Below are positions 787-21,865 of a stretch of DNA of 64,000 bases, one piece after another. Position 1 is the stretch's first letter. Every line of letters begins with the position of its first letter. The stretch is from contig OZ038383.1 of the NCBI GenBank assembly GCA_964036045.1, positions 89,747,514 through 89,811,513 on the forward strand, in the 5' to 3' direction. Both the position numbers and the translations under genes were made by a program. Source of the stretch: Eutreptiella sp. 'Long Island Sound 2002'. Lineage: Eukaryota; Euglenozoa; Euglenophyceae; Eutreptiales; Eutreptiaceae. The notes below the pieces were generated by a model, which saw only the letters and a list, made by a program, of their open reading frames with translations, was not told the origin of the DNA and did no database searches.

Positions 787-802
787 TGTAACTACGAAGT
801 AA
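787..802 (+). repeat. Left terminal inverted repeat of element B
   Basis: TGTAACTACGAAGTAA, preceded by CA. Its first 13 bases match the terminus of element A at 11 positions, which supports a common transposase family. Confidence 0.85.
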
Positions 803-849
803 AGGCCCAAAGTGTTTCTTAGGTAAAAACCAGGTAAAAACCAGGTAAA

Positions 850-1080
850 ATGGCTAAAAAATCAATAACTTGCTTTGTGCGTGTTTGCTCGGGGGGTCAC
901 CGGTCACCTCAGAACCTCCAGCCGCGGCCAGCCGCAGTGAGAATCGCTCCTCTCTTATGATGTGTAACGGACACATTTGCATGCAAAGAGGCTGAAGCAT
1001 GGGTGAAAACGGAGGTGTTTTGCCACTTTTACGTCTCTCGCACCACAACACCACTATGTACACGCAATTATTGCTCCTTA
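850..1080. other. Left-end spacer of element B
   Basis: This lies between the left terminal repeat and the ACGCAAA-type cluster. It has a short direct repeat (AGGTAAAAACC, about 820-850). No gene is apparent. Confidence 0.5.
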
Positions 1081-1084
1081 CTGC

Positions 1085-1240
1085 CTTTTTACGCGCGGAA
1101 AAGGGTGTATTTGCGTGGTTACTATAAGTTCAGCTCGGACGCAAAAAAGGTCATTTACGCACGTAAAAGGGCTTATTTACTTGTCTCGTGAATTCTGTTG
1201 CGGACGCAAATTAGGCCTTTTGCGCACGCAAAATCCATGT
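1085..1240. repeat. Left subterminal ACGCAAA-type repeats (element B)
   Basis: Several degenerate copies of ACGCAAA / TTTACGCACG / TTTGCGCACGC lie just inside the left end of B. The same motif fills the other B spacers (10805-11035, 19258-19500, 21510-21625) but not those of element A. The cluster is followed by a pyrimidine tract and CTTAG (to about 1260), which looks like a 3' splice site before the gene at 1282. Transposase-binding or transcript-processing roles are possible; neither is shown. Confidence 0.65.
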
Positions 1241-1281
1241 AATTGCCTCTTTCACTCTTAGGGGCTTCTCTTTTATGGGAC

Positions 1282-2486
1282 ATGCCTGGCAAGAAGACTA
1301 GAGCCAAGGCCGCTGTCCAAGCCACCGGGGACCCGCAGCCACCGCCCAAGCCCGCACCTCCTCCCCGCACCACCCATGAGCCCACCCGGCAGGTTGTTGA
1401 TGAGTATGTGAAGGTGGTGGGTGTGGAAAATGTGGCGGGAGCTGGGATCCAGGTGTTGGATCTGCACTCTCGGTGAACGAGATTAAGGGGTTGCCGGCTA
1501 TCCCCGAGGATGTTTGCTCGGTGAGAGAGCGGCTGCAAAAATTGCAGCAGGAAAAAGGTGAATCCTTGAAATATTTGTTGAGAGTCAACCTGCAGGCCGG
1601 TCCAGTTGCTTTGACCAAGGGAGTTTTGAGCAATTTTTCTCTTGGCTCATACCACTGGCTGAGCCCTGCCCCAATGGGGATATTCCTGCAACTTAGCGTA
1701 GACACCTTAACGGCATTGTTTGCCATGATGCAACGTGTCCAAGGTCTCCAAAAGCAATGTGTGTCGGTGTACAATGAGCCGCATGCGGACCGGGAAAATG
1801 AGACCGGTAACCGACGGATGTGGTCAGACCCCGTCAAGGTGAAACATTGGGCAGAGCGCCTCGATACGGACACACACGTTTTTTTCCGGGAGTCCAAATT
1901 TCAGGACTGGTCGGCCTACGGAGCGATCCGGTCCGTGGGTCGGCGCGAGGCCTTGAAAGGACTGGCCATCCCTTATTTGACGCAGCTTACAATTTCTGTA
2001 ACGCAGGACGATTTTTTTGCGCTTGGCATGGGTTGCCCGTCGCCAGACATCGCAGTGAAATACCCTGTGTCTCGGCATCCGTTGCCGGATCCGCCCTCTA
2101 GGACCCCCGAGGAATGTGAGGCCACATGCTACCGTTTGGTGGAGGACATTCTGCCAGGGCACTTGGTGGATCAGTTATGTGCCGTGCATTTGGAGGGAGA
2201 GGAGAATTCGGAAGACGTTCTCCTCTCAGGGCCACAACCAAGGTCGTGGGCGCCGGTAGACCGCCCCGGGAAAGGTGAACAGGTGGCTTCCCTCGGAAAT
2301 CAAGTGGCGTTTGCTGCGCATTTTGGCAGACCTTTTCCCGGTGCTGGATGACCTAGTGGACCGGGAGCCCCGGTTGGTGGAACGGATGGACGCCCCCCCC
2401 TGGCGGGGCTACTAATGGCCGCACCGCGATTTCATGCTTACGTTGCGGGATGCCGCGGACACGATGGTGGTTTTCGTATCCCTGCA
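1282..2486 (+). pseudogene. Dioxygenase-like gene of element B, 5' part
   Basis: This is the N-terminal two thirds of a double-stranded beta-helix dioxygenase-like protein, a paralogue of the element A gene at 2828-4889. The proposed ATG begins MPGKK, matching MPGK in A, after similar 5' sequence. Shared landmarks are E-I-K-G-L-P near 1480, a hydrophobic strand near 1690, and W-L-P-S-E near 2282. The last segment reads P-P-W-R-G-Y, a TAA (2413-2415), W-P-H-R-D, where H2422 and D2428 form a candidate HxD iron-binding motif. Frameshifts near 1480 and 2270 are needed. The gene is interrupted at 2486 by element A and resumes at 10034. The Fe(II)/2OG assignment is by motif pattern only. Confidence 0.65.
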
Positions 2487-2504
2487 TGTACCTGCTAAGA
2501 TCTG
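2487..2504 (+). repeat. Left terminal inverted repeat of element A
   Basis: TGTACCTGCTAAGATCTG, preceded by CA. The mate at 10016-10033 differs by one base. Confidence 0.92.
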
Positions 2505-2515
2505 CCCCATTTTGT

Positions 2516-2725
2516 TCACATGTATGCGTACGCGTTACCGTACGCACTGTTTTTGTAACGCGCACGACCCAGCGAACCAGTGCGTACGCGTTGCGATCTC
2601 AGTGGGTACGCGTTGTGATCTGAGTGCGTACGCACTGGTATTTTGGCGCGTACGCGTTGGTATTTTAGCGCGTACGCACTCAGATTGCAACGCGTGCGCG
2701 CTGCCTATGGTGCCCGTACGCTGTC
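2516..2725. repeat. Left subterminal ACGCGTACGCGT cluster (A)
   Basis: About eight degenerate copies of a partly palindromic motif around CGTACGCGTTG, spaced roughly 20-30 bp. Equivalent clusters lie at 4898-5165, 7118-7375, 9578-9775 and 9972-10012, so the motif occupies both subtermini and each spacer between the A genes. Confidence 0.85.
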
Positions 2726-2790
2726 TGCAGTACTGGTGGTTGAATTGTGCTACTTTTGACGTGACAAAGAAAAACTTTTACTTTGCTTCA

Positions 2791-2811
2791 TGTCTGTTTT
2801 CCTTTCCTTAG
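2791..2811 (+). promoter_or_regulatory. Candidate 3' splice site before the first A gene
   Basis: A pyrimidine-rich run ends in CCTTAG, 16 bases before the ATG at 2828. The homologous position in B (about 1250-1260) has the same arrangement. Confidence 0.5.
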
Positions 2812-2827
2812 TGCTTTTCTGCACGAC

Positions 2828-4889
2828 ATGCCCGGCAAGGAAAACCGGCAAAGAAGAAGGTGGCGAGGAAAGGCTCCAGGCCTGCCGCCGAAGCCGGGGC
2901 CGTGGCAAAGAGGGCGCCGAGGACAAGTGTGGGTCAAGACGTGGTGGTGGGAGAGGAGGATTTTGAGGAGGAGGAGGAGGAGGAGGATGAGGTGGTGGCC
3001 GAAGGCAATAGGCCCGCCGAGATTGTGAAGCGGGCCTTGGAGGTTGGGGAGTTGGAGGAGGATGAAACGGTGGAGCGTTGGTTCACGGACACTCGTGAGG
3101 CAGGAGATCTTGCACACGGTGTTCATGGTGTTGTTGTTGTTCGTTTAACTTTGGGTGAGGAAGAAATTAAGGGTCTTCCGGAATTGCCAAGTTCATGGCA
3201 AGATGTTTTGCTTTTGGATGTGAATGCGCAAGCACTAGGTGTTATTGCTGTTGTTGATAGTCGTTCCGTTCTTGCATGGCCCAATGCCGATGCACTACCC
3301 CACACCCTTCTCCCTGCTGCTTTGTTTGAGTTTGTGGGTGAGCGTTTGCTCATGGTTTCCATTAGTTTGAGTTTTGGTGAGCGTGACGCACTTTTCACAA
3401 CCATGAATGGGTGCTTGCGTAAGAGAGTTGCCAAGACCCTTACCCACAAATATGCCGTGCTCAATGATGGTACCCTTTTCCCCCACCCCGTTGCCAGTAC
3501 CGTGGACAGCATTTGTTGCACGGACTCCTTTGTTCGGTACATGAGTTGTGCATCGGAGGAATGGAATGAGCATGGCCCCATTCAAGGCGTGCCCCCACCC
3601 CTTTCGGTAAAATACCACCCCGATTGCTCGACGCCATATGTGTATGCAGCCGCAACAGAAGGTTTTTGCAATGGGTTACGGTGCACCCACACCATTTTTT
3701 TGTGATATGCCGTTGCCCTCAAACCAGTTGCTTCCCGACGCACCCGTTGAAAATGTGCACGGGTTGGCACATGCCGGTTACTTCATTCAACGGCATTCGT
3801 TTGATGCCATTATTGGCGAAGCAATTTTAAACGTTGACATTGCCCCCCGGCATTGGGAGGTTATTACGTTGGAAGATGACACTTATGCAAGTGCCAACGT
3901 GATTCGGAAGCAAACAAAATGGTCGTTCAAATGGTTGCCCGAGGAGTTGCGCACGCAAGTGTTGGGTGTGGTGACGCGCATTGAGGGTGTTGAGTGGAGT
4001 GCGTTGAAACCCGTGGATCTGAAATTGTTGCATTGTACTCCATGCGACCCATGGGATGGGTATTAGTTGGTCCATTCGGATCACAACCTTATGGGTCCAC
4101 CTTGGATGAAGGATTGCATGCAAGTCTTTATTCCCTTGGACAATGTTCCTCCCGAGTGTGCTTTGCAAGTCGGTGTGGGTTCACATCAGGTTGGGCAACA
4201 TGAGTCCAATCGTTGGGATGTGTGTTCCATGGAATTGGGTGACATCCTTCTTTTAAAAGGTTGCACCTTTCATCGGCGGGTGGTGGGGAAAAGGGGCGCT
4301 ACACTTTGTTCATCCCGTTCGTCCCTTTGGAGCATGCTGCCACCATGTCAAAGGTGCATCTTGCTCGCCAATTGTATGCCCTTCCTCCTATGGTTCAATT
4401 TCTGAAAGATGCCAAAGGTGTTCCTATCCCTTGGGAATCTTTTACCCATTTGTCCGCTCCGTTGCTTGTTCGGCGACGGCAAGCTGTCCCCTATTGTGGT
4501 GACGTTGTGATTTTGGGCCATGGTGTGCAAGGTGCAACTTTCTTTTTCAATTGTTCCCTAGGCCCCGAGGAGCCACCATGTTCCTTGGCTCGGTTTCACC
4601 GTTGGTACCTCCCCAAGCCGAGTTTTGACGGCGGGACACGGTTCACGGTTGAGAAAGGTTCATTGGTGTTCACGCTTGCCACGTGTGGTTGACGTTGAGG
4701 CGGGATGAGGATGGGCCGGAATGGATGGAGTGGGCAGCCATGGGGCATGCCCTGCATGTGGCGGCCGCTAGTGTTGCGGAGGCAGTGGAGCGGAATTGGG
4801 TGGTGCAGCGGCCAACGGCGGGCGGCGGAATGGAGTACTCATGTGGGTGCATGCACCATTGCGATAATTATGGGGAGGTATGCATCTCT
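2828..4889 (+). pseudogene. Fe(II)/2OG dioxygenase-like gene of element A
   Basis: The start is MPGK, then after an early frameshift (about 2842) a basic then Glu-rich segment, then E-I-K-G-L-P (about 3166). The C-terminal half carries a jelly-roll dioxygenase pattern. H4073-S-D4079 is a candidate HxD motif, G-V-G-S-H follows near 4172, and F-H-R-R has a distal His at 4271, then a G-x-T-L-F-I-P-F-V strand. This resembles the phytanoyl-CoA-dioxygenase type of 2OG enzyme. A TAG (4064-4066) stands three codons before the HxD, exactly where the B paralogue has TAA. The tail ends in a Cys-rich motif (C-G-C-M-H-H-C ... C-I-S-C, about 4840-4890), also present in B. Frameshifts occur near 2842, 3660, 4300 and 4685. 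The substrate is unknown. Confidence 0.65.
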
Positions 4890-4897
4890 TGCGCATG

Positions 4898-5165
4898 TGA
4901 CACGTACGCACCGCGTACGTTTTGTGCACGTGCCTCGTACGCGTTACGTTTTTCGTGCGTACGTGTTAACTTGCCAACACGTACGCGTCGGCCAGACAAA
5001 TCGTACGTGTTGGGGTGACAACACGTACGCGTTGCCCGAGCGGTTCCTACGCGTTGGCGTACCAGCACGTACGTGTTGCCCAAGTAGATCGTACGCGCTA
5101 ATGTACCAACGCGTATGTGTTGTGTGCGCTGCCCACGCGTGCTATGTCACTGAGGTACGCATCTA
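4898..5165. repeat. ACGCGTACGCGT cluster between A genes
   Basis: More than ten degenerate copies of the A-specific motif. It is followed by a pyrimidine tract and TTGCAG (5199-5204), a strong candidate 3' splice site. A GAG|GTATGC donor-like site at about 4876 suggests the cluster may be intronic and that neighbouring ORFs could be exons of one gene. Confidence 0.75.
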
Positions 5166-5204
5166 GTGTCACCATTAACCTTCCTCTATGCTTTCCTCTT
5201 GCAG

Positions 5205-6449
5205 TTGAACGTCACCCCCTTCAAGTACAATGAGCGGCGCCCTTGGCCCTGTGAAGCACAAGTGCGCCCGACGCCTCCGGATGCGGGCCGGAAGGTGATG
5301 AAGCCGAAGTGGCTTCTTCAGAGCCCCCCAGGCGCTCCATTGGTGGCCACGGACCCTGAGTCGATAGGGACAATTCCAGGGCAACTGGTGCAGGTGAGTA
5401 AGGAGGAGGTGCTGGACAACGTCCATGTTGGGGATGCTGCCAAGTATAGTTTTTTTTATCAGGTTACATTGCAGGCAAAGGTAAAGGAAGACAGTGGTGC
5501 GGTCACATGGGCTGAGCCCATAATGGTCCGCTTTCCCATGTGGATGAAGGGGCATGCCGTTGGGAGGGACCCTGCAGCAATTTTTATTCGGGGGACTGTG
5601 TACCAGATTGAAGGTGACAGCCACAGTTACGTGCGGACATGGCGGGTGCAAGGAGGGCAGCTCAAGCAGGCCAAGCGTGTTCAGTGGTCAGGGGTGGCTG
5701 GTTACCTTCCAATCGCTGACGCTGCTGTTGTTGCACAGGTGGATGGGGCAATGGAGAGGTGGAAGCTTCTCCTTGCGGGGAAGGTTGGGGGGAAGAGGGA
5801 GACGGAGACGGGGGGGGGAGAGGAGGGCTACGACACCGACCAACCGCGGCACGGTTCTCGTATGTCCCGTGCCAAGAAACCAAAGCTTGGTGCCAAGGGG
5901 GGGCCCATACTCCCCCCAAAGCTCCCCCCCGCCTCCCCCTGAGCACCACTGCGTGAGCACCTCAAAGACACACAGGCGCAGCTAAACCCGCGAATTCAGT
6001 AACTTGAGAAGGTGCGCAAGCAGAGTGCGCAGGCAAAGAAAGCTGCAGAGGACATGCTGAGGGAAGAGCGTGTAAAGTGTGAGGAAGAGCGAAGAGAAAA
6101 GGACAGTGAGATTAGGGACTTAAGAGTGAAGCTGCAGGATGCCTCTGTGAGGGCAAGCAAGAAGGGCCCAGCCAGCCCTCGCCCTGGCGAGGGGGGGAAA
6201 GATGTGGAAGACCGGAGGAATTCTTTGTAGCTGGCAGCAATGGAAATCAGGGATGGCCTTGTCCAAGCCACCACATCCATTTGGGACCTGAGGGAATCAT
6301 TGCAAGATGCAAGAGGCAAGGAGTAGACACAAGGACAAAAGACTCTCTCTGCCCTTACAGCATTGAGGGACAAGTACACTGTGCAGAGTCTACAGTTAGG
6401 CAAGCCGGTGGGGCAGCCCGGTGGCAGTGGCAGTGGCGGTGGCAGTTGA
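5205..6449 (+). pseudogene. Coiled-coil protein of element A
   Basis: The frame is open from the splice-like acceptor at 5204. The N-terminal about 200 residues form a domain shared with B (11046-11700), most clearly around the Y-Q-I-E-G-D-S-H / L-K-Q-A-K-R-V segments at 5605-5690. A Pro/Gly-rich linker (5800-5940) precedes a strongly charged coiled coil rich in E, K and R (about 5946-6350). The C-terminus (L-R-D-K-Y, then a Gly/Ser-rich tail) aligns with the B copy. In-frame stops are TGA 5940, TAA 6000, TAG 6228, TAG 6324 and TGA 6447. The three UAR codons sit in coiled-coil sequence where Gln fits. A structural or DNA-organising role is a guess from the coiled coil. Confidence 0.6.
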
Positions 6450-7079
6450 CTCCCAGGGGCCGCGGCTCTCCACTCCTCTGACATATGTTTTTTGTTGGGG
6501 GGGTTGGACCGGGTGTGGCAGTCCAAGGACAGGTGGGGAGTACGATTGCGTTCCGCGTTGTTTGGGGTGGTGCGGCGTGGCAATGTCCGTGTGGCTGTTG
6601 CAACACGCACCTTCCCAAAGGTGTGCCGAGCCATCAACGCCTACGGGCGCGCACGGTTGCCATCGTGGTTCACTTGGACTGCCGTCCAAGTGAACCACGC
6701 TATTTTGCCTTCAAGCACTATGCCAGGGCACAAGCACCAGGACCACCTGCCCTTGAGTGCCATTGTGACTGTTGGTGATATTTCAGGTGGGGAGTTTTGT
6801 GTGGAAGAGGCTGGGCTCGTGTTCGCCACAAGGGGAACCCGCCCCTACACAATGGCATGTGTTGCAGGGCCAGAGGGCCATGACAGAGTGGATGAGGATG
6901 GGGTGGCATTGGATGCCCGGAATGGGGTTGTTTTTTGCAGTGGTGCTTTGCACATGCCAGCCCCGTGGTTTGGACAACGCTACGCACTGGTGTTTTTTAC
7001 CCAGGTCGGCCTCGGCAAGGTGTCGTGGGAGGACCTGGTGCTGCTGCGGAGTCTTGGGTTCAGGCTGTGTGCCGGGTAG
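6450..7079 (+). pseudogene. TET/JBP-like 2OG dioxygenase domain (element A)
   Basis: This continues in the same frame as the preceding coiled coil after TGA 6447 and has no upstream ATG of its own, so it may be a fused C-terminal domain. The core pattern is N-H-A (about 6690), then H6735-Q-D6741 (HxD), S-A-I-V-T-V-G-D, G-G-E-F (small-strand GG motif), and a distal H6951 in G-A-L-H-M-P-A-P. It ends with G-Q-R6978-Y-A-L-V-F-F-T, where the Arg would bind the 2OG carboxylate. This order is characteristic of the TET/JBP group of nucleic-acid-base dioxygenases. Those enzymes oxidise 5-methylcytosine or thymine in DNA and are known to be carried by some fungal transposons. All five key residues are present. 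No equivalent is seen in element B. Confidence 0.7.
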
Positions 7080-7117
7080 CATGTGCATGCATTGTGCATT
7101 GATGGGTGCAATGTGTG

Positions 7118-7375
7118 TCAACACGCGCGCGTTGTGGAAGGGGCGCGTACGCGCTGGGGTGCGTGGTGCGTACGCGTTACGGTGTTGCATCGTACACGTT
7201 GCTGTGTTGGCGCGTACACGCTAGGTTCATGACGCGTACGATTCGCTGTTCCGGCGCGTACGCGATGGGTTCATGAAACGTACGATTCGATGTTGTGGAA
7301 CGTACACATTAAAGATGAAACGCGTACGCGGCTCGTACGCGCAGACGTACGTGTTGAATGTTGCACTGGTGCCTA
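7118..7375. repeat. ACGCGTACGCGT cluster upstream of the A transposase
   Basis: Around ten degenerate copies of the A-specific motif. They are followed by C-runs, a pyrimidine tract and CCCTAG (to about 7431), then the ATG at 7460. Confidence 0.8.
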
Positions 7376-7459
7376 TACGTGTGAACCTTGTTGTGTCCAT
7401 GCCCCCCCCCCCCTTGTTGTCTTTCCCTAGGGTTCCCCCCCCCCCCCCACTCAGGGAAC

Positions 7460-9145
7460 ATGCCCCCGGTCAAGGAGTACCAACAGCCGGGAAGGAACAA
7501 AAGATGGGACCGGATGGCCCAACTGCAAACGGCAGTCACGGAAATTCTTGGTCCAACCTTGCAAGTGCAAGCTGGCGAAAACGTGAGCACCCTAATTTTG
7601 AAAGCGACGGATGGGCCCATGCCCCAAAACCAGATGTGGCATGCCGAGGCCCTCCTATGGGATTGCCGCAAAGAGGGCAAAAGCTGGCCGGCCCTACAGT
7701 ACTCCATCCCCACGTCCCGGATCAAATGCCCGAGTGAAGGACGAACTTAGTGCACCACCAGTAGTGGACTACAATGCAATGGACGGGGACCACACATTGC
7801 TGGGGGCCGGTACAAATTTGAGGGAGAAACTGGGACTCATGATGGCCGCCCGTAAGGGAAATTTGTACCCGGACCTCTGGGTACTCCTGTCTGTGGATGG
7901 TACACAACTACACAAGCGGCACTTCGAGCATTTTATGCTTGGAGTGCTTGGATCGGGCAACCCGCTTGGTAGCTGGTGCATTTTACACGGCTCTGAAAAA
8001 CGTGCTGTGCTACGATCGCTCACAAGGGTTAGCAAAATGGATGAGCAGGTGCAAGAGGCCCTGAACACAAAGTATGAGGTACAAGGGGGTTACATAGAAA
8101 AACCCCATATTTTCCTGGTTGCAGATGTCGTTGCACAACAGGCAATGGCAGGCATCAATAGATGGAACTGCACCAGTGTAGACCCAGTGTGTTGGGTATG
8201 TGGAAAATGCAGGGCACATTGCGATCCCGACTTTGGAAAGGGACTTTCACCCATTCTGTCACACTGGACCTGGTACGGGCAGGTGCTACGTAGCATTTTG
8301 CCCAAGTACAGGCCTCCCGACTATGCATTGCATGGGGTGACGCGTGTAACTCACAGTGGCCTTGATGGATGTTGGAGGGCTCTTGTACCGCACCATCGCT
8401 TCACGAAGAGGCGCGCTGTTGCATGGGTGCAGACCCATGTAAATCCTTGCAGGGTTGCCTCACACAGTGTTGCACCACAAGACATCGCAGGGCAGGGGGG
8501 TGAAAAACCATCACTCCGTTGTGAACAGAGCGTAGCAATTCTATTTGTTTCGACAAAGGCCTGGGGTCCCCTCATTGTAGAGCTGAACAATGAAGGTCTC
8601 TTGCAACATGTCGTGGAAGGGGGACACACATGGGCGCAAAATTTTGATTGGTGGTGGGACTGTTTGCACAAAAGTGCAACCATTGCCAAAAAGGAGGGGC
8701 TCTTAGGAGCCCAAGAACTTGACAACCTAAAAAATGTGCTACCCCAAATGGCAATGCATCACAAAAGGTGCCAATTGGGGCAAACCCTGTGGGTGCACCT
8801 TTGGGTTGACCACATGCTTGGGTTTGCTAAGCATGTAGTGGCATGCAGTGGCATGCCCTTGGGGCCTTTGCTGCCTTCAAGGCAGAAGAAAGGCACAAGA
8901 CTCTGAAAACAGAGATTCGGTTTATGAGCTTCAAGGCGGGGGCAAGGAAAGTAAAAGGGGGGGTACGGGGACGGAGAGGTAGACTGGTGAGGCAAGTTTT
9001 CGTGAAAGGGTGGAGGCAAGTTGTAAAAAATGATAATCTGGATTGGGGTTTGTTAAAGAGGGGATGGGATGTATGGGTGCGTGCATGGACACAACAACCA
9101 CACGTGAAGGAACACAAAACGTGTTGGAAGGCCAATGCGCCCTAG
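7460..9145 (+). pseudogene. Putative DDE-type transposase of element A
   Basis: Paralogue of the B gene at 19555-21276, aligned over nearly its full length. Candidate RNase-H-fold catalytic positions are D7896 in S-V-D-G-T and D8124 in V-A-D-V. They are followed by an inserted zinc-binding CxxC (C8190 and C8199), then L-H-G-V-T-R (about 8330). The C-terminal block is H-L-W-V-D-H-M followed by K-A-E-E-R-H-K-T-L-K-T-E. This D, D, CxxC, H..., E layout is typical of large eukaryotic transposases with a zinc insertion (hAT, KDZ, RAG/Transib), but I cannot place it in a named superfamily. Frameshifts near 7730 and 8870 break the frame. A TAG ends the last segment. Confidence 0.65.
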
Positions 9146-9369
9146 CAGTCTGTATGGTGTTTTAGCTCTTGTGTATGATATTTGATTGGGGATCCCATTG
9201 AAATGCTTTGGGCAAGTATACTTCGTCTTCAATGCACTGTGCATTCAACATGCTGTTCTGGTGCAGTACTGCTTTACGTGATGCTCTTTGCAAGGGTAGG
9301 GTGGTTCAGATTCCTGCAACGTTCGTTTGTGGATGAGTGGTTAAAAAAACCAAGGGCAGCTGGTGATCA

Positions 9370-9570
9370 CATTTGAATGCCTGTCTTCAGCGCCTGTATT
9401 TGTTGGTTGCGCCCCATGGGGTAAGCTTGTCCTCCACGTCCTTTGTGGGCCCCTGGTCTTGCGGTTCCTCTTCCTACGATGCAGACGCAGTGCGTATGAA
9501 AGGCTTTGAACCCAGGGTTCCGAAACGTAGGGAACATGCACATACCTCTAGACCAACCAGCTGCCATACC
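9370..9570. other. Non-coding block shared by elements A and B
   Basis: Two stretches recur in B at 19030-19235: GCCTGTCTTCAGCGCCTGT and a downstream segment with CATACCTCT. On the minus strand both copies contain a box resembling the internal B-box of RNA polymerase III genes (GGTTCAAAGCC here, GGTTCAAGCCC in B) and an A-box-like GGTCTAGAGGTA. No full tRNA fold is evident. In A the block follows the transposase gene; in B it precedes it. Confidence 0.4.
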
Positions 9571-9577
9571 ACGTAAC

Positions 9578-9775
9578 ACGTAGGCGGTGCGTAAGAACTA
9601 CGTACGCACCGGCAGATCAACACGTACGCGTCGGTAATCTAACGCGTACGCGCTGGTGAGCTGACGCGTACGTGTTAAGTTACTAACGCGTACGCGTCGA
9701 AACACCAACACGTACGCGCCACGCACCCAACGCGTACGTGTTGCACTTCCAACACGCACGTGTTAGAGGACAATC
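9578..9775. repeat. Right-side ACGCGTACGCGT cluster of element A
   Basis: Nine or so degenerate copies of the A motif between the transposase gene and the right end. A smaller group lies at 9972-10012, directly next to the terminal repeat. Confidence 0.85.
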
Positions 9776-10015
9776 TGAAAGCAAGGTTTTGGGAAATTCA
9801 GTACAGCTTTCGGGACACTCTGCGGAGGGAGAAAGCGACCTACGGTCGGCAATGTTTGCAGTGGCACCCAGTGGTACAGGGGAAGTGCAAAAAGGGGTTG
9901 GGTTGGGTAAGGTGATACCCCACACATGAATTTTCCATGAAAAATGATAAATTTCCAACAAAGAGAAAACCAGCGCGTACGCGTTGAGATTTCAACACGT
10001 ACGCGTCTATGCGAA

Positions 10016-10033
10016 CAGATCTTAGCAGTTACA
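10016..10033 (-). repeat. Right terminal inverted repeat of element A
   Basis: CAGATCTTAGCAGTTACA, followed by CA. Its reverse complement begins TGTAACTGCTAAG, close to the B terminus TGTAACTACGAAG. Confidence 0.92.
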
Positions 10034-10903
10034 CAGGATGATCCCCCAGAAAAATCCCTGCAAATTGCACCGGGGACAAGCCATGGCTACCACGCGTCCA
10101 ACACGTGGCATGTAGTCCAGCAAAAGCGGGGCAGTATTTTGCTGTTGGATGGGACGTCGATCCATCGTGGAGCTGGTGGGCCGGGGAGGACGATTTTTTC
10201 CCCCTTTGTGCCGGAAAAATTCCGCACACCCGTAAATGTGGTGGAACCGGAGAATGTCCCGGACCTGATGTTTGTTGAGCCGGAGGGACCGGAGGAGGAA
10301 GAGCCGGAGGAGGACCCCCCGGCAACCTCTTCGGGCAGTGATTTGCAGCCCCCTGCACCACCTGCCCCAAGGTTGAGTTGGTCGGCGCCCCTGAAAACGC
10401 CCCCGGGGATGGAGAAGAAAGTCCCCTACATGGGTGACGTGTGGGTCATTGGGACTAGGGTTGGGACCGCTGCCATTAGCGTGTGCCCATTCACAACGGA
10501 CGGTTTGGGGCCGGAGGACGAGAATGCCGAGGAGTGCTCGATGCCCTGGTACCACCGCTGGTGGATCCCCCCTCCAATGGCGGACAACATGGTGCGGGTC
10601 CCCGTCGCCCCCGGCTGCGTCTACTTTGGGGTCTGTCCTAGCAGCCTCGTCCTCACCCGCGCACCCAGCGCCCGTGAGATGCAGTGGGCTTCAATGACGA
10701 TGCACTATACCGCCTCAATGCCGAGCATGCAAGCCGAATCCGACGGCAAAGTGAAGTGGAACGTGAAAAAGAAGGAATACATGTGCCCATGTAATGAAAA
10801 GGTGTGTAATTACACCGTTTTTGCGTGCGTAAAATGCATCGTCCGCACATCGGCTATACACATGACGAGGACGCAAAATGGGTCATTTACACACGCAAAA
10901 TAG
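10034..10903 (+). pseudogene. Dioxygenase-like gene of element B, 3' part
   Basis: Continuation of 1282-2486 after the insertion of A. It starts D-D-P-P-E, then T-S-H, then G-S-I-L-L-L-D-G and I-H-R with the distal His at 10163, followed by G-R-T-I-F-S-P-F-V. It parallels G-D-I-L-L-L-K-G ... F-H-R-R in the A copy. An acidic Pro-rich linker (about 10270-10370) is followed by a second beta-rich segment, then a Cys-rich tail (C-P-C ... C ... C-V-K-C, 10778-10836). That tail corresponds to the one at 4840-4890. With H2422 and D2428 from the 5' part, the HxD...H triad is complete. Confidence 0.65.
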
Positions 10904-11035
10904 GGTATTTACGTCGTTGCCTAATTTCGATCTGTGACGCAAAATGGGTCATTTATGCACGCAAAATAGGGTATTTACTTCGTTGCCTGATTTCAACCCG
11001 GGACGCAAAACGTGTCATTTGCGCACACAAAATCC
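10805..11035. repeat. ACGCAAA-type repeat cluster between B genes
   Basis: Three longer units of about 70 bp built on ACGCAAAATGGGTCATTT, ACGCACGCAAAATAGGG and TATTTACGTCGTTGCC. It lies in the same relative position as the A cluster at 4898-5165, but with the B-specific motif. Confidence 0.8.
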
Positions 11036-11045
11036 CAGTAAATTC

Positions 11046-12107: not shown

Positions 12108-12300
12108 TGGTGCTGGGTCGGCCACCAACAAGTGTCTCTAGAGAAAACTGTCTGGCGCCGAAGGCGCCAAATTTAATTTTCATGCTATGTGTTTATACTC
12201 AACATACTCAAAATTTTGTAGAGAAATCATATTTATGTTAAAACGAGAAAAATTTTGACGTGAAGGAGGGCTACAGGAGGGTTGCAGGCCCTAACAGCAA
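12108..12300. other. Spacer before the satellite array
   Basis: AT-rich non-coding DNA. It has a small perfect hairpin (GGCGCC-GAA-GGCGCC, about 12154-12168). No gene seen. Confidence 0.5.
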
Positions 12301-13459
12301 CATTAACCCTAGCCCTAACCCTAATCAAGACTGAATATTGGGACCGAGCTGCTGGGGGAGGGAACATCAGCTATAACTGGTGAGGGACATGAAGAATGAT
12401 TCACGCATTGATGGCTCTTTTGACAAAGGGAAATCAGCTTGCAAGTGAACCCCATCACCACGGGGCCCACTTTCAAGGCTTTTTGGACTTCTTAGGGGCC
12501 AAAATGCCCCGAAATGGGCTCAAAATGGGCTCATTTCACCCACTTGTGCACCCCAAATGGTCTTGGATGAGGTTTCGAAAAATGCGTTTTGGACCCATTT
12601 TTGACCCATTTTTGGTCCCAAAACAGCCCATTTTCAAGGCATTTTGGGATTTTCGGAGGACCAAAATGGGCCACCGGAAGCTCAAAACGGTCCAAAAACA
12701 CTTGTTTTAGCGTCGCACATGGTCTAGGATCATTTTTGAGAAAAGTCATCTTTTTGCCCCTACTGGACCCTGTTGACCCATTTCGGCATCCACCCGTTTG
12801 GGCTTGAGCTTGCAGCTTGCCGCAGCCTAGTGGGCCTAGGTATTGGGGTCTAGGGGTCCGTTTGGGCAATTCTGAGGGGTGGAAACCACATAAAGTGCGG
12901 GGTTGCGGGTGGAGTAGGTGCCCTCGGAATCGCATTTGGAGCCATGTAGCCAAAGATATGGCCTATTCTTGGTTTGTGGCTATCGGCAGTTGGAGCTTCT
13001 GGGGGCCTTTTTGGGCCGTTTCCGGGACATATCATGGAGTTAGAGGGCCGCAAAGAGCTCATTGACACGGGGAAGTCAAGCCGCAGGTGAAGGGTACCCA
13101 CCGTTTCCCTTCGTTTGGCCCTTTTGAATGTGTTCCAGGGCTTTTTTGGCCCAAAAATGGCTGTATTTCGCCCTAAACTGCAGTTTCTGAAACTGAGGTC
13201 CGCCACTTGCGAATCCCGTTCCCGGCCGCCACCGTTGAGTTTCTTGCTCAAACCTTGTGTGCTTGTACTTCACACCCATAGGTATCATCCACCAAAATTT
13301 CACCGGAATCTGAAGCACCACGGCAGAGTTCTGATTTTTCCCCATTTCGCGCGTGCTGCTGCTTGCTTGCTGCTTGCTGCTGCTTGCTGCTGCTTGCTGC
13401 TGCTAAACCTGGTAGGTCCACCCTAGACACTAAAAAGGGTTATACAACCAAGACTGGTT

Positions 13460-13523
13460 CCACCAGCTCGGTGACCCAAGCCCTAACCCTAATCAAGACT
13501 GAATTTTGGGACCGAGCTGGTGG
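13460..13523. repeat. Unit-junction hairpin with telomere-like loop
   Basis: Arms 13460-13472 and 13511-13523 are perfect inverted repeats; the loop contains CCCTAACCCTAATC. Equivalent structures are 14330-14342 / 14386-14398 and 15487-15499 / 15533-15545. The array starts with a right arm (12337) and ends with a left arm (18009-18021). Confidence 0.85.
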
Positions 13524-16188
13524 GGGAGGGAACATCAGCTATGAATGGTGAGGGACACCAATGAGTCACACATTGAAGCCCGTTGACAGAGTGAAATGAG
13601 CTTGCAAGTGAACCCTATCACCACGAGGCCCACTTTCAACGCTTTTTGGACCTTGTTGACCCATTTGGGCACCCACCTGTTTGGGCTTGAGCTTGCAGCT
13701 TGCTGCAGCAGAGTGGGCCTAGGTATTGGGGTCTAGGTGTCCGTTTGGGCAATTCTGAGGGGTGGAAACCACAAAAAGTGGGGGGTTGCGGGTGGAGTAG
13801 GTGCCCTCGGAATCGCATTTTGAGCCATGTAGCCAAAGATATGGCCTATTCTTGGTTTTTGGCTGTCGGCATTTGGAGCTTCTGGGGGCCTTTTTGGGCC
13901 GTTTCCGGGACATATCATGGAGTTAGAGGGCCGCAAAGAGCTCGTTGACACGGGCAAGTCAAGCCGCACGTGAAGTGTACCCACCGTTTCCCTTCGTTTG
14001 GCCGTTTTGAATGTGTTCCAGGGCTTTTTTGGCCCAAAAATGGCTGTTTTTGGCCCTAAACTGCAGTTTTTGTAACTGAGGTCCGCCACTTGCGAATCCC
14101 GTTCCCGGCCGCCACCGTTGAGTTTCTGGCTCAAACTTTGTGTGATTGTACTTCACACCCATAGGTATCATCCACCAAAATCTCAACCAAATCCAAAGCA
14201 CCACGACGGAGTTCTGATTTTTACCCATTTCGCGCGTGCTGCTTGCTTGCTGCTTGCTGCTGTTGCTTGCTGCTAAACCTGGTAGGTCCACCCTAGACAC
14301 TAAAAAGGGTTATAAAACCAAGACTGGTTCCACCAGCTCGGTGACCCTAACCCTAACCCTAGGGCTATCAAGACTGAACATTGGGACCGAGCTGGTGGGG
14401 GAGGGAACATTAGATATGAATGGTGAGGGACATCAAGAATGATTCACACATTGATGGCTCTTGACAAAGTGAAATGCACCTGAACCCCATCACCACGAGG
14501 CCCACTTTCAAGGCTTTTTGGACTTCTTAGGGGCCAAAATGCCACAAAATGGGCTCAAAATGGGCTCATTTCACCCTTTTATGCACCCCAAATGGTCTTG
14601 GATGAGGTTTCGAAAAATGTGTTTTTGACCCATTTTTGACCCATTTTTGGTCCCAAAACAGCCCATTTTCAAGGCATTTTGGGATTTTTGGAGGACCCAA
14701 ATGGGCCACCACAAGCTCAAAACAGTCCAAAAACACTTGTTTTAGCGTCGCACATGGTCTAGGATCATTTTTGCGGAAAGTCATATTGTTACCCCTTTCG
14801 GACCCTGTTGACCCATTTGGGTACCCACCTGTTTGGGCTTGAGCTTGCAGCTTGCCACAGCCCAGTGGGCCTAGTTATTGGGGTCTAGGCGTCCGTTTGG
14901 GCAATTCTGAGGGGTGGAAACCACAAAACGTGCGGGGTTGCGGGTGGAGTAGGTGCCCTCGGAATCGCATTTTGAGCCATGTAGCCAAAGATATGGCCTA
15001 TTCTTGGTCTGTGGCTTTCGGTAGTTGGAGCTTCTGGGGGCCTTTTTGGGCCGCTTCCGCGGCATATCATGGAGTTAGAGGGCCGCAAACAGCTCGTTGA
15101 CACGGGGAAGTCAAGCGGCACGTGGATGGTACCCACCGTTTCCCTTCGTTTGGCCGTTTTGAATGTGTTCCAGGGCATTTTTGGCCGAAAAATATCTGTT
15201 TTTGGCCCTAAACTGCAGTTTCTGAAACTGAGGTCCGTCACTTGCGAATCCCGTTCCCGGCCGCCACCGTTGAGTTTCTTGCTCAAACCTTGTGTGATTG
15301 TACTTCACACCCATAGGTATCATCCACCAAAATTTCACCCGAATCTGAAGCACCACGACGGAAATCTGATTTTTACCCATTTCGCGCGTGCTGCTGCTTG
15401 CTGCTTGCTGCTGCTTGCTGCTGCTGCTGCTAAACCTGGTAGGTCCACCCTAGACACTAAAAAGGGTTATAAAACCAAGACTGGTTCCACCAGCTCGGTG
15501 AACCTTAACCCTAATCAAGACTGAATATTGGGACCGAGCTGGTGGGGGAGGGGACATCAGCTATGACTGGTGAGGGACATCAAGAATGATTCACACATTG
15601 ATGGCTCTTGACAAAGTGGAATCGGCTTGCAAGTCAACCCCATCACCACGAGGCCCACTTTCAAGGCTTTTTGGACTTCTGAGGGGCCAAAAAACCCCAA
15701 AATGGGCTCAAAATGGGCTCATTTCACCCGTTTGTGCACCCCAAATGGTCTAGGATGAGGTTTGGAAAAATGCGTTTTTGACCCATTTTTGACCCATTTT
15801 TGGTCCCAAAACAGCCCAGTTTCAAGGCATTTTGGGATTTTGGGAGTACCAAAATGGGCCACCACAAGCTCAAAACGGTCCAAAAACACTTGTTTTAGCG
15901 TCGCACATGGTCTAGGATCATTTTTGAGAAAAGTCATCTTTTTGCCCCTACTGGACCCTGTTGACCCATTTGGGCACCCACCTGTTTGGGCTTGAGCTTG
16001 CAGCTTGCCGCAGCCTAGTGGGCCTAGGTATGGGGGTCTAGGCGTCCGTTTGGGCAATTCTAAGGGGTGGAAACCACAAAAAGTGGCGGGTTGCGGGTGG
16101 TGTAGGTGCCCTCGGAATCGCGTTTTGAGCCATGTAGCCCAAGATATGGCCTATTCTTGGTTTGTGGCTGTCGGCATTTGGACCTTCT

Positions 16189-17026
16189 GGGGCCTTCAGC
16201 AGCTGCGCGTCCGCACGTTGATGACGATTGCTTTGTCACGAAGCACACTTTCCTTATTCACTTTGGTGACCCTATTCCCTTACAATGGGACAACTCCACA
16301 ATCTACCTCAAGCATTGTGGTATTTATGCTTTTGACGCATCTAAAAAGCACAGCCTTCCAATTTGGCCTCGCTTTAGTATCTCCTTGCGATCTTGGGACA
16401 CTGGTAGTGCCACGCCTTGTGAAGACGACCATGTCACCAAAAAAATTCGCCCTAATCCGAGCAACTAGAGGTTGATCCTCTATCCAACGTCCTAACTTTG
16501 AATGTTTTGGTATTTGGCTTTCGCTTCATCGCGATCCCATCAATTACCTCCAATGTGCCTGTCCATTTCACCGCAATCAATCAATGCCCGACGTGGCCGG
16601 TACCTTTTTGACCGTATTTTGAATTTCGCTTTGTGCCATTCCGCCATATCCCATTAATTTGTGCCACGTGAGTTGGAAAAAAATTCGCGTGAATTTTTTT
16701 TCCTGCCCCCCACGTCGCCCTTAGCTTACTGCATACGTTGTGTTGTTTTGGACCACGTTCATCCTAACCTTGAAGCGAGCAACCTAACCCCGTACTCCAC
16801 TCGGAATGAATGTGCTCCCCAAGCTTCGTGTTGACGTCTGCGCTCGGCTTTCGCTTCACCGCGATCCCGTTCCTCTTTCTCTTGTTATGAGCAAATCAAT
16901 GCATATGTACAATGCATTGTACTTCCTGCCACATACCTGTACCAAAAAATTGATGTCTCTATCCGGCCATTGTGTGCCTGTCAAGTGTTGCATGTTCCTT
17001 GTTTCACGCATTACGGGGTGCCACAA
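16189..17026. other. Non-satellite segment inside the array
   Basis: This 0.84-kb piece interrupts a satellite unit. After it the unit restarts at an earlier point (17027 corresponds to about 15650), so it sits at a duplication or fusion junction. A frame at 16200-16468 looks coding in composition but is not recognised. A CTTTCGCTTCAYCGCGATCCC motif occurs twice (about 16518 and 16849). Confidence 0.55.
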
Positions 17027-18044
17027 GGCCCACGTTCAAGGCTTTTTGGACTTCTGAGGGGCCAAAATGCCCCCAAAATGGGCTCAAAATGGGCCTATTT
17101 CACCCGTTTGTGCACCCCAAATGGTCTAGGATGAGGTCTGGAAAAATGCGTTTTTGACCCATTTTTGACCCATTTTTGGTCCCAAAACAGCCCAGTTTCA
17201 AGGCATTTTGGGATTTTCGGAGTACCAAAATGGGCCACCACAAGCTCAAAACGGTCCAAAAACACTTGTTTTAGCGTCGCACATGGTCTAGGATCATTTT
17301 TGAGAAAAGTCATCTTTTTGCCCCTATTGGACCCTGTTGACCCATTTGGGCACCCACCTGTTTGGGCTTGAGCTTGCAGCTTGCCGCAGCCTAGTGGGCC
17401 TAGGTATGGGGGTCTAGGCGTCCGTTTGGGCAATTCTAAGGGGTGGAAACCACAAAAAGTGGCGGGTTGCGGGTGGTGTAGGTGCCCTCGGAATCGCGTT
17501 TTGAGCCATGTAGCCCAAGATATGGCCTATTCTTGGTTGGTGGCTGTCGGCATTTGGACCTTCTGGGGGCCTTTTTGGGCCGTTTCCGCGACATATCATG
17601 GAGTTAGAGGGCCGCAAAGGGCTCGTTGACACGGGGAAGTCAAGCCGCACGTGTAGTGTACCCATCGTTTCCCTTCGTTTGGCCGTTTTGAATGCGTTCC
17701 GGGGCTTTTTCGGCCCAAAAATGGCTGTTTTGGGCCCTGAACTGCAGTTTTTGAAACTGAGGTCTGCCACTTGCGACACCCGTTCCCGGCCGCCACCGTT
17801 GAGTTTCTTGCTCAAACTTTGTGTGATTGTACTTCACACCCATAGGTATCATCCACCAAAATTTCACTGGAATCCAAAGCACCACGACGGAGTTCTGATT
17901 TTGGCCCATTTCGCGCGTGCTGCTTGCTGCTTGCTGCTTGCTGCTTGCTTGCTAAACCTGGTAGGTCCACCCTAGACCCTAAAAAGGGTTATAAAACCAA
18001 GACTGGTTCCACCAGCTCGGTGACCTTAACCCTAACCCTAAACC

Positions 18045-18635
18045 CCCCCGCGCTCACCCCTGGCTGGACACCCGCATGACCCCCGGCCAGACCGCCCCCC
18101 CCAACCCCCGGCAGGAACACCCCCCCCCCGACCCACGGCAGGAACACCCCCCCCGACCCCCCCCCCGAGTTTTGAAAGATATTTGGGGTGTGGGTCGCAT
18201 TAGGACCGGTTGTGGTCACCCCTCCGTGGCGCGGCCACGAAGGCCGAGGCCGGGTGGCAAACCCGGGAGAAGAAGCTCCTGGACGATTTGGAGGCTGCGC
18301 GTGGGCATCGCGGGACGAAGCGCACCGCTCCCGAGGCCGTGGCTGTGCCGGAGGGTGTCGCGGAGGACAAGGCCTGGCTGACGCGGTGTGCCGTTGAGTT
18401 GCGAACGGGACTGCAGCAAGCAGCAACGGCCACGGCTCTATTGGAGGAGAGCCTCAAGCGAGTCGACAAGGATGCTGCGCCCCGTCCGTCCTCCTCAGCG
18501 GCGTTGGATGCGCTGCTGAAGAAGTACGACGTCGGAGACATCCTGCAACCGCCGAGGAAGAAAGGGGCAACTGAGCCCGGAACCCCAACGGCGGGAGTGG
18601 GGTCGCCACGGTCCCAAGGATTTGGGGTCCGTTGA
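18045..18635 (+). pseudogene. Coiled-coil protein of element B, 3' part
   Basis: A Pro-rich start (about 18060-18165) is followed by a charged helical region (18240-18510). It ends L-D-A-L-L-K-K-Y-D-V and a Pro/Gly tail terminated by TGA 18633. That end aligns with L-T-A-L-R-D-K-Y and the Gly/Ser tail closed by TGA 6447 in element A, so it is the C-terminus of the gene beginning at 11046. Short sequences at 12080-12125 and 18160-18200 resemble each other (AAAGATA followed by TGGGTCG), possibly a duplication made when the array was gained. Confidence 0.5.
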
Positions 18636-18648
18636 GGTGAACGGCGGC

Positions 18649-19029: not shown

Positions 19030-19235
19030 GGTTTTGTGGTGTCCGCCTGTCTTCAGCGCCTGTTTGGGGGGTTGTGGCTCTTCAGGTTGAGTTTTTGAAT
19101 TGATCATCAACCTCTTCAACTTCTTCCGTTCTTCAATGGCCTACACACATGTTTCAAGTTTCGAGTGCGTTGGGCTTGAACCAAGGGGCGTTCCGTGTGT
19201 GAGTGTAGCATGCATACCTCTGACCCACCCGGTGC
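19030..19235. other. B copy of the block shared with element A
   Basis: Matches 9370-9570, including GCCTGTCTTCAGCGCCTGT (about 19046) and a segment with GGCTTGAACC and CATACCTCTGACC. The minus strand gives GGTTCAAGCCC. Between 18810 and 19030 nothing else is recognised. Confidence 0.4.
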
Positions 19236-19257
19236 CATGGCATTGCAAATGCCTCTT

Positions 19258-19500
19258 TTACCCCACTCTTGCGTATGCAAATGGCGCCTTTTGCGTGCTT
19301 GCACAACTTACACCTGGGACGCGAATACATCCTTTTGGGTGCGCAAATTGCATGTTTTGCGCGTCGACTATTTTTCGAGCGAGAACACAAAAGCACCCTT
19401 TTGCATGCGCAAAAGGCCCTTTTTGCACCGGTAACCAAAGTAGGGTAGGTACGCAAATAGGCGCATTTACGCTCGCAAAAACGCGGCAATTGCGTCTCCT
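19258..19500. repeat. ACGCAAA-type cluster before the B transposase
   Basis: Multiple ACGCAAA / TTTTGCGYG / GCGCAAA motifs in B style. They end at CTCCTACCTGCAG (about 19506), a candidate 3' splice site upstream of the ATG at 19555. Confidence 0.75.
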
Positions 19501-19554
19501 ACCTGCAGTGCAACGCGCTTGTGCCACATGCGTCCCAAGTGTTCTTTCTTCATT

Positions 19555-21276
19555 ATGCCGCTGCATCCGTGGCAGCTCCACCACTTGGCCCTGGGCAATC
19601 GCAAAGGCCGTGGTGAGCGGATCAGCAGCTTGCAGCGTGCGGTGCGTGACATTATGAGTGAGGATTGGAATGTGCGCATGCGGAGTGCGGTTACAAATGT
19701 GGGGGACGCCTACACAGATGTCCCCACGGATCATCAACTCGATTTGGAGTTGAATGCCATGGCGGTGTTGTGGGAATCGAGGAAGGAGGGTCAAAGTGTG
19801 CGGCGATTGCAGTACAGCCGGTCCACATCCACGTGGTATTGCCCATGGGCGAAATCTGTCGCCGTGTGAAAGACCTTGGGTGCCCCCCACCCCATTGATT
19901 TCTCGGTGCAAACTCCCGGCAGTAATGATTTGATTGGGTCCAGGGTGAATGTGAAGGAGAAGCTGCAGCTTATGTGGCAGCATAACCCCCCGGTAACACA
20001 AGGTAACCAAGTTTTGGTGGGGATTTCCATTGATGGAACCAAACTTTGGCAACGCTCTTTTGAGGACTTTGCTGTCGGCGAGTGGGGTAGCCGTGTGCCA
20101 TTGGGTTCATGGGTGCTACTCCAGGGCTCGGAGACCACCCAAATTCTTCGCGAGTTGGCCCACCAGGAAAATTTGAACCTTGATGTTTTGGATGTGAATG
20201 CGATGCAAGTTTTGAATGAGGGAGGGTATCCCACACCTGTTACGTGTGTGATTATCGCCGACACCAAGTCGCAAGTTGCCCTCTCCGGGTGTCGGAATTT
20301 TAAGTGTAATGATCCTTTGGCACCTGTGTGCTGGCTTTGCGGGGGGAACCGTCTTCATTGTTTGGGTGCGTTTGGGCAGGGAAATTCAATTTTGCTCAGG
20401 GTTTGGCAATGGGGGGGGATGACATTCCTAGCAGTCCTCCCTTTCCAAAGACCCCCCGACTTTGGACTCCATGGGGTGCACCGTTTGGTGCATTGTGCGG
20501 GCAGTGGGTTGGTTAAGGCTTTGATGCATCACCATGGGTGGACAAAGGGGAGGGCATTGGTTTGGGTGCAGTGGTTTTGGGATGACATCAAGGTTGAGAG
20601 CCGTACGGCCACGGCGGCCGATTGTGAGCAAGAGAAGGTGGGAAAGAAGGCCCTGCGTTTGGAGCAAACTGCCGGGGCAGCATAGGTCAAAGGGCAAGGG
20701 TGGGATTGCATTGCCGACTACTTGGAGGGGGACAATCTTTTACAAGTCCCGGTGCAAGTGGGGGGGGTTACAATGACATGGACTGCTTGTTGGCGTTTGT
20801 GGGGAGAGAAATTTGCAGTGACTTGTGACCTTGTGTGGAAAGAGAGGAGGTTGGACCTTCGCGATATGAATATGTTGAGAAGTGCTTTGACCGAGATGGG
20901 GAGTGCCCACAAAGCTTGTGGGTTTGTGGTGACCCTGTGGGCCCACCTTTGGGTGGACCACATGTGGGGGATTGTGAGGGAATGGGGTACCCTGTGCACA
21001 TTTAGTGCTTTTAAGGGTGAGAGGAGGCATCAGTCGTTGAAGACGGAGATTAGGAAGAGGACCTTCAAGGGGGGAAGTAAGAAACGGGGGTCTCGCCTAC
21101 GGGGGGCACGCCGAGCACAGAGGAAGGGGTGGGCCGAAGTGCTTCGGAACGACAACGTGGACTGGGGTTTGTATGCCAAGGGGTTCAACGTCTGGCAGCC
21201 TTCTTGGACCCGCCAAGAGGCATATGGGAATGCCAAGCAGTATTGGGAAAGGGTGATGCGTAAGGGGAAGTCGTAG
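19555..21276 (+). pseudogene. Putative DDE-type transposase of element B
   Basis: Same family as 7460-9145. Candidate catalytic residues are D20032 in S-I-D-G-T and D20260 in I-I-A-D-T. The CxxC is C20329 and C20338, followed by L-H-C and L-H-G-V-H-R-L-V-H (about 20470). The C-terminus has H-L-W-V-D-H-M-W (about 20945) and F-K-G-E-R-R-H-Q-S-L-K-T-E (about 21010-21050), followed by a basic region. The alignment with A is collinear through TAG 20683, which falls opposite a sense codon in A. TGA 19867 and frame switches near 19860 mark decay. The last stretch ends at TAG 21274. Confidence 0.65.
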
Positions 21277-21509
21277 GGTTTCTCGCATGTTTGTCGTACA
21301 ATCTTACAATTCTATCGTGTATACTCCGGAGGTTTGGTGGTGGAATACCACTTGGACATGTGTGACTAAATGATTGGTACAATGCAAAGAAATATCCCAG
21401 CAATTGCCTCCATGTTTCCTTGCACGCATGGCATGCATTGGACCCGGGATGTGGGTTTGTGTTTGCGTGCAAGGGGTGGGGTGGGGGGGGGTCAAAAGCA
21501 GGCATTTAC

Positions 21510-21625
21510 CTTGATTTTGCGTAGGTAAAAGGGGTATTTTGCGTCCCGAGTGGAAAAAAACTGGTAAGTAAAAAGGGCAATTTGCGCACGCAAAAGGGCC
21601 TTTTTACGCACGCAAAAACCAACTA
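21510..21625. repeat. Right subterminal ACGCAAA-type repeats of element B
   Basis: GCGTAGGTAAAAGG, TTTGCGTCC, TTTGCGCACGCAAAAGG and TTTTTACGCACGCAAAAACC lie inside the right end. Between this cluster and the terminal repeat (21626-21849) no gene is seen. Confidence 0.7.
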
Positions 21626-21849
21626 AAATCCCTGAAACATACTACCGGGCCTCAAAGGTACAAGAGAACACTGCGGGTAGGGGTAGGGGACCATTGTGCG
21701 TGTTTCCAACATGGATTGTGGAGCATGGGGGTATTCTTAGCATGCCGGATTTGAATTTCATACTCATTTTTGACCAAAATGCTGTTTTTGACCACTTCCT
21801 CATTTTTGCCCCTTTTTTGCGTCTTATTTTTGCTATTTACTGAGAAACA

Positions 21850-21865
21850 TTACTTCGTAGTTACA
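21850..21865 (-). repeat. Right terminal inverted repeat of element B
   Basis: TTACTTCGTAGTTACA followed by CA; exact inverse of 787-802. Confidence 0.85.

Follow-up and report, generated by a model that had tools for sequence, protein, structure and literature searches.

Iyer et al. reportedly linked TET/JBP genes to fungal transposons in 2014. According to the available part of a more recent account, fungal DNA transposons with such genes belong to numerous superfamilies, namely KDZ (Kyakuja, Dileera, Zisupton), hAT, IS3EU, PHIS, EnSpm, ESTA, Plavaka, and Helitron, and an escape from methylation has been proposed as their role (Kojima 2025; PMC12730594). Within the accessible portions of the open-licence literature, no elements of this kind were found in organisms other than fungi, nor any that carry two types of dioxygenase; a paper on Ectocarpus transposons describes giant elements of the KDZ and EnSpm kinds that contain additional genes, and the word dioxygenase is absent from the part of its text available (PMC12477816). 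Here, we analyzed a stretch of 64,000 nucleotides from the euglenophyte Eutreptiella sp. 'Long Island Sound 2002' (contig OZ038383.1; G000:C6:89747514-89811513; hereafter designated the window), in which an inner DNA transposon, E2 (2487–10033, plus strand), is nested inside a related outer one, E1 (787–21865, plus strand), the latter being interrupted by both E2 and a satellite block. Together with a third family, E4, revealed by searches of the genome (2,280,300,865 bases in 2205 contigs), E1 and E2 are families of one coherent group of cut-and-paste DNA transposons present in many copies. All three delimited families contain a dioxygenase-like gene in which the motif H-x-D...H...R occurs, and we somewhat favor the reading that the dioxygenase-like proteins of this group oxidise modified bases at the elements' own repeat arrays, relieving silencing by the host.

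The 13-base terminus TGTAACTRCKAAG occurs exactly at 787 (plus strand), 10021 (minus), and 21853 (minus), and with one mismatch at 2487 (plus). When up to two mismatches were allowed, six matches were obtained against a mean of 2.5 in shuffled sequences, and 4 of 100 shuffles reached six; the terminus motif being weak by itself, the case for a nested pair was built on the pairing of the ends and on their flanks. E1 is bounded by perfect terminal inverted repeats (TIRs) of 16 bp (787–802, plus strand; 21850–21865, minus strand), and the ends of E2, at 2487–2504 (plus) and 10016–10033 (minus), agree in 17 of their first 20 bases, with one early mismatch. Both elements have in common the inverted end motif TGTA.CT.C.AAG, extending over 16–18 bp, and CA stands outside both ends of E1 and likewise outside both ends of E2 as a 2-bp target-site duplication (TSD). 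Moreover, E2 is inserted in the dioxygenase-1 gene of E1, as the E1 pieces at 2350–2484 and 10034–10840 align, one after the other, with adjoining stretches of the E2 protein. The end pairing, flanks, and similarity confirm an earlier note on this DNA, which had described a nested pair with common termini, CA flanks, and gene order. Since the E1 and E2 proteins show only about 30–46% identity over the aligned pieces and their DNA is alignable over a single 33-bp stretch, E1 and E2 are separate families rather than copies of a single one. In the window, both elements have decayed through stops and frameshifts, and open frames are present elsewhere in the genome.

The earlier note had also called for a genome-wide search for copies, and many were found: at least 97 matches to the E2 transposase (97 of 5144 first-look candidates scored), at least 146 to the E1 transposase (142 of 4398 scored), and at least 152 to the TET-like protein (150 of 3751 scored), all three counts being lower bounds. 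An open frame of exactly 679 residues was present in 12 of the 97 listed E2-type transposase matches, and seven listed matches with 50–51% identity to the E1 transposase led to E4, a complete element of which (L047, 2127–8880; 6754 bp) has the ends TGTAACTACGAAGCCAA and a GA flank on each side. E4 has its ends, gene order, and 2-bp duplications in common with E1 and E2. Perfect TIRs measured 17 bp in E4 and 18 bp both in the copy L023 (TG flanks) and in a neighbor copy of E2 at window coordinates −63104 to −59126 (TG flanks). Indeed, 2-bp direct repeats were found in all five elements having both ends, that is, CA for E1 and E2, TG for the neighbor copy and L023, and GA for E4; the copies L022, L024, L025, and L046, with no intact end pair in the stretch read, are excluded from this count. 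TIRs, TSDs, and dispersed copies with open transposase frames, by which cut-and-paste DNA transposons are recognized, are thus all present. In E1, E2, and E4, the genes lie on one strand in the order dioxygenase 1, coiled coil, and transposase, and E2 adds a TET/JBP-like open reading frame (ORF) before the transposase. No relatives were found in viral and prokaryote contigs with the search patterns applied.

The transposase genes, located by similarity, lie on the plus strand at 19555–21276 in E1 (with two in-frame stops) and at 7460–9145 in E2 (frameshifted in the window copy). D161, D237, C(2)C (CWLC or CWVC), and H307 together with H314 (HGV.R..H) were found in all five aligned rows, and the late K(G/A)E.RH in all four of those long enough to reach that position, which supports the DDE-like transposase proposed before. 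H(3)H is present in the E1 and E4 transposases, and E2 has T at the first H.

Dioxygenase 1 is encoded on the plus strand, in E1 by a left part (1283–2486; similarity to the E2 and E4 proteins) and a right part extending to a putative splice donor (10034–10801; sequence reading and similarity), and in E2 by a frameshifted gene with one in-frame stop (2828–4877), of which a longer open frame exists in the copy L024. The motif stretches GFQIPHRD (E4), GYQWPHRD (E1), and GYQLVHSD (E2) are followed, about 60 residues downstream of H-x-D, by IHRGAGGPGR / FHRGAGGGEKGR (in the order E4, E1, E2). Variants occur as HGD in the E1 copy L049 and as IHGGAG in L046; the window E2 protein diverges past FHR, where a frameshift occurs, and the one open E4 frame still shifts further on, within a run of C. 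The rows are 32–44% identical to E4, with one short piece at 52%. The PhyH-like pattern (H-x-D, ~60 residues, H, R, and a PGT/GSH-like stretch) is found in E1, E2, and E4, and dioxygenase 1 resembles the PhyH-like 2-oxoglutarate (2OG) oxygenases in this respect; no Pfam oxygenase family was matched by it. An alternative code (TAA/TAG = Gln), prompted by a stop that E1 and E2 share at one place before H-x-D, was rejected: at that place, Gln codons stand in related copies, and the standard code leaves many of the transposase frames open.

The coiled-coil gene of E1, found by similarity on the plus strand, is likewise in two parts, at 11040–12110 (including an AT-hook-like RGRPPK) and 18204–18635. 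It is interrupted by a 6-kb block (about 12116–18180) of five ~1.15-kb repeats with internal CCCTAA runs; in the related copy L046, the gene is unsplit and the block absent. The corresponding region of E2 (5205–6449, plus strand; similarity) contains in-frame stops in the window copy. In E2, the array block between dioxygenase 1 and the coiled coil is flanked by the donor GAG/GTATGC and the acceptor CTTGCAG/TTGAAC in all four copies examined, delimiting a putative intron (4878–5204, plus strand; GAG/GTATGC...TTGCAG/TTG), whose removal would join the dioxygenase-1 and coiled-coil frames in phase. The coiled-coil gene that had been predicted is present, as is its AT-hook-like stretch, although the evidence for the latter is weak (Pfam E 9); the gene may not, however, encode the dedicated protein then envisaged, as it could form one spliced gene with dioxygenase 1.

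The TET/JBP-like ORF of E2 (6450–7079, plus strand) is constrained from about 6558 onward, as judged from copy comparison. When 150 of the 152 TET-like matches were paired with the 97 listed E2-type transposases, 77 of the transposases had a TET-like match no more than 10 kb upstream in the same orientation; for 69 the distance was within 1 kb and for 36 it was 509–538 bp, and 20 had no such match upstream. Among 23 E2-family copies, the motif residues were retained as H in 23, D in 21, the distal H in 22, and R in 21, and the residue inside H-x-D varied among five different ones. The pooled ratio of nonsynonymous to synonymous substitution rates (dN/dS) in 19 copies was 0.99 for codons 1–36, 0.68 for 37–91, 0.505 for 92–186, and 0.21 for 187–210 (pairs not independent; the partial or shifted L026, L028, L029, and L031 left out), and the median pair value for the whole ORF in all 23 copies was 0.55 (250 pairs with dS > 0.02). 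A TGA between the coiled coil and this ORF is kept in 21 of the 22 E2-family copies covering the site (L031 differs, L026 lacks coverage, and L029 is excluded). Stop-codon readthrough from the coiled coil was considered and is not favored, because codons 1–36 past the TGA evolve neutrally; the ORF may begin via a start codon or a splice acceptor (NAG/G).

A further element, E3, lies just upstream of the window (L011:5750–9281; window coordinates about −4250 to −719) and contains a coiled coil, a TET-like ORF (L011 6509–7096), a transposase-like gene, and inverted GGGGTGCAACAAGG arrays, which show yet another motif and no 22-bp period. The TGA is present here in the same frame, in a context (TGACTCC; L011:6506–6520) similar to that of the E2 family. 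The ends of E3 were looked for and not found, nor was dioxygenase 1 found in its neighborhood between about −16 kb and +1 kb. At L049:156–848, a further transposase-like frame was observed that contains a CWLC motif and resembles the transposase of E3. The TET-like protein of E3 is 31% identical to that of E2, and its gene is also located between the coiled coil and the transposase-like gene, which argues against the TET-like gene being a mere passenger that a single family picked up and that is decaying without a role. Such a passenger would explain that reading the E1 and E4 copies revealed no such gene, that some copies contain stops, and that the pooled dN/dS is just moderately under 1. 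Nevertheless, the best 24 of the TET-like matches are 99–100% identical and stop-free, and the constraint is unlike that of the neutral leading segment; we regard a passenger as highly improbable. Being unseen in the E1 and E4 copies, the gene is not essential to the transposon group.

CpG-rich, family-specific repeat blocks were found at both ends of the elements and between their genes; in E2 and E4, they clearly follow a spacing of 22 bp. E2 contains 26 RCGTAYGY sites, compared with a mean of 1.0 after shuffling (single-base shuffles for all array motifs), in blocks at the left end (2526–2677), in the gap between dioxygenase 1 and the coiled coil (4902–5118), on the upstream side of the transposase (7145–7352), and at the right end (9600–10004), and 17 of the 21 within-block spacings are multiples of 22 bp. 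E4 contains 58 GGCGCGC/GCGCGCC hits against a shuffle mean of 4.1, with a 22-bp period and in the same four kinds of place. In E1, the corresponding places (left end, 1083–1233; gap between dioxygenase 1 and the coiled coil, 10818–11035; upstream side of the transposase, 19395–19500; right end, 21573–21617) hold repeats with a different motif, of the TTTACGCACGCAAAA type, spaced 22 or 66 bp, of which strict hits are few (6 versus 0.06 by shuffle). The genome also contains 55 matches to PF00145 (cytosine-C5 methyltransferase), each flagged over the cut-off, six of which cover more than 300 of the 324 positions. Many of the PF00145 matches form equal-score groups on different chromosomes, as if spread by mobile DNA.

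In the mechanism that we favor, the transposase would be a DDE enzyme binding the element ends, and the repeat blocks would be binding sites for element proteins, doubling as promoters or switches. Probable splicing to the coiled-coil/AT-hook part would bring dioxygenase 1 to the arrays, and the enzyme would oxidise methylated or otherwise modified bases there, as would the TET/JBP-like protein in E2. Base oxidation would then relieve the silencing exerted by host cytosine methyltransferases, and it is in this sense that we infer an anti-silencing function. A more specific form of the mechanism, which we put forward tentatively and consider possible but doubtful, is that of a self-editing group: dioxygenase 1 would be spliced to a coiled-coil/AT-hook part binding the element's own 22-bp CpG-palindrome arrays, each family would strip or rewrite the modification on its own copies alone, and some families would have the TET/JBP-like protein as a second enzyme. 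To our knowledge, dioxygenase 1 would in that case be the first PhyH-like enzyme acting on DNA from within a transposon.

Judging from their motif residues, both proteins are probably dioxygenases. Several results, however, weigh against this assignment and the mechanism built on it. No dioxygenase was recognized in either enzyme by Pfam (E ≤ 10), PHROGs, or PDB sequence and profile searches, nor by profile–profile comparison, in which the two enzymes were set against one another and the TET-like one also against a genuine PF12851 protein, these profile tests being weak because of the low alignment diversity (effective number of sequences, about 1.7–2). PF12851 matched none of these elements; its sole match in the genome is located on a different contig (L001, G000:C2034, 1501–1923, minus strand) and lies in a 534-residue frame of a small AT-rich contig, possibly giant-virus-like, and past the PF12851 region the same frame has what looks to us like a glycosyltransferase domain. 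AlphaFold models were unusable both for dioxygenase 1 (mean predicted local distance difference test score [pLDDT], 29; shallow 9-row alignment) and for the TET-like protein (mean pLDDT, 33; shallow 15-row alignment). Furthermore, the aligned motif in E3 is H-P-R-D instead of H-x-D, only 5 of 14 E2-family rows have ATG at codon 37 of the TET-like ORF, the copies of E1 and E4 that were read showed no TET-like gene, and CpG transitions in the TET-like copies are only 1.3-fold those at CHH. The profile searches suggested in the earlier note (PF12851 and PhyH among them) thus recognized no dioxygenase in these elements, so that its dioxygenase-like genes stand by motif, in three families, and not by profile identity; its two dioxygenase types in one element hold for the inner E2, the outer E1 having one. 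The failure of every profile and structure test to confirm a dioxygenase fold would be expected if there were no oxygenase at all, the conserved genes encoding ordinary accessory proteins (DNA-binding, TnpA-like) and the H-x-D...H...R being coincidental. This seems distinctly unlikely to us, since the motif residues are retained over dioxygenase-1 rows as divergent as described above and in the 23 TET-like copies, in which the position between H and D is variable.

The trace of cytosine methylation bears on the substrate. Single-copy transitions per 1000 sites in the TET-like copies amounted to 7.4 at CpG, 5.8 at CHG, and 5.9 at CHH, whereas those in the right part of six copies amounted to 14.9, 13.9, and 5.6, respectively, that is, 2.7-fold (CpG) and 2.5-fold (CHG) over CHH. 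With CpG transitions raised only slightly in the TET-like copies and more strongly in the right parts, the trace is mixed. Many PhyH-like and other 2OG enzymes act on substrates other than DNA, and the PhyH-like motif is mostly that of small-molecule and protein hydroxylases. The dioxygenase-like proteins might accordingly target a protein (histone, transposase, or host factor) or an RNA base, the transposon gaining via chromatin state or transposase maturation; the mixed trace agrees with this, as does the fact that no profile tied either protein to a DNA-acting family. The array layout with CpG-rich palindromes, the many methyltransferase matches in the genome, and, as far as the accessible part of that account goes, the fungal precedent of TET/JBP-carrying transposons (PMC12730594) speak against another substrate, which we consider rather unlikely.

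If the motif reading holds, the strategy of carrying DNA-oxidising enzymes, known from fungal transposons, would be combined here with another kind of transposase, an additional type of enzyme, and arrays specific to each family, and a single genome would contain at least some hundreds of such copies. These elements would then provide a natural experiment on mobile DNA countering host methylation, in which one-enzyme, two-enzyme, and deleted families within one genome could be compared by direct base-modification reading. Apart from this group, a 1000-residue open frame with GIY-YIG-like and reverse-transcriptase-like stretches was observed at L053:2–3001; it may belong to a Penelope-like element.

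Comparison with known systems places the group beside several described ones. In the CMCT clade (EnSpm/CACTA, Mirage, Chapaev, Transib, Plavaka, and ESTA), C(2)C and H(3–4)H stand between the second D and E of the transposase; the E1 and E4 transposases agree with this in having C(2)C and H(3)H there, and the 2-bp TSD falls within the 2–5 bp of that clade. The differences are that the ends are TGTA...TACA here, in contrast to CA...TG in most members, that a T replaces the first of the two H residues in the E2 transposase, and that there is no Pfam match. With KDZ elements, which in fungi are linked to TET/JBP and which the earlier note had mentioned in this connection, the present ones share a large size and accessory genes. 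Neither of the two KDZ features tested was found: the TSD is 2 bp here versus 7–8 bp in KDZ, and a single transposase from each of E1, E2, and E4 gave no match to KDZ-type Pfam models at E ≤ 10. In En/Spm TnpA and VANDAL VANC, an element protein and arrays of short subterminal motifs are linked to the loss of DNA methylation; no oxygenase is known to be involved there, and those arrays are not known to share the sequence or spacing of the present ones. The resemblance to the fungal TET/JBP-carrying transposons, as far as described in the part of that account available, consists in a complete DNA transposon, a TET/JBP-type gene beside the transposase, and anti-silencing as the proposed role, whereas TET/JBP is there taken as recognizable by homology and the superfamilies and TSDs are others. 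Since PF12851 is unmatched, the KDZ features are lacking, and the CMCT comparison is mixed, the elements are not filed as members of these kinds. The view that such a transposon had not yet been described must likewise be narrowed: TET/JBP-carrying transposons of many superfamilies are known in fungi, and what would be new lies in the different transposase, the second enzyme type, and the arrays, the PhyH-like first dioxygenase and the 22-bp arrays being unseen in the available part of the fungal account (PMC12730594). Collectively, if the motif reading is right, these elements would work like the fungal TET/JBP-carrying transposons.

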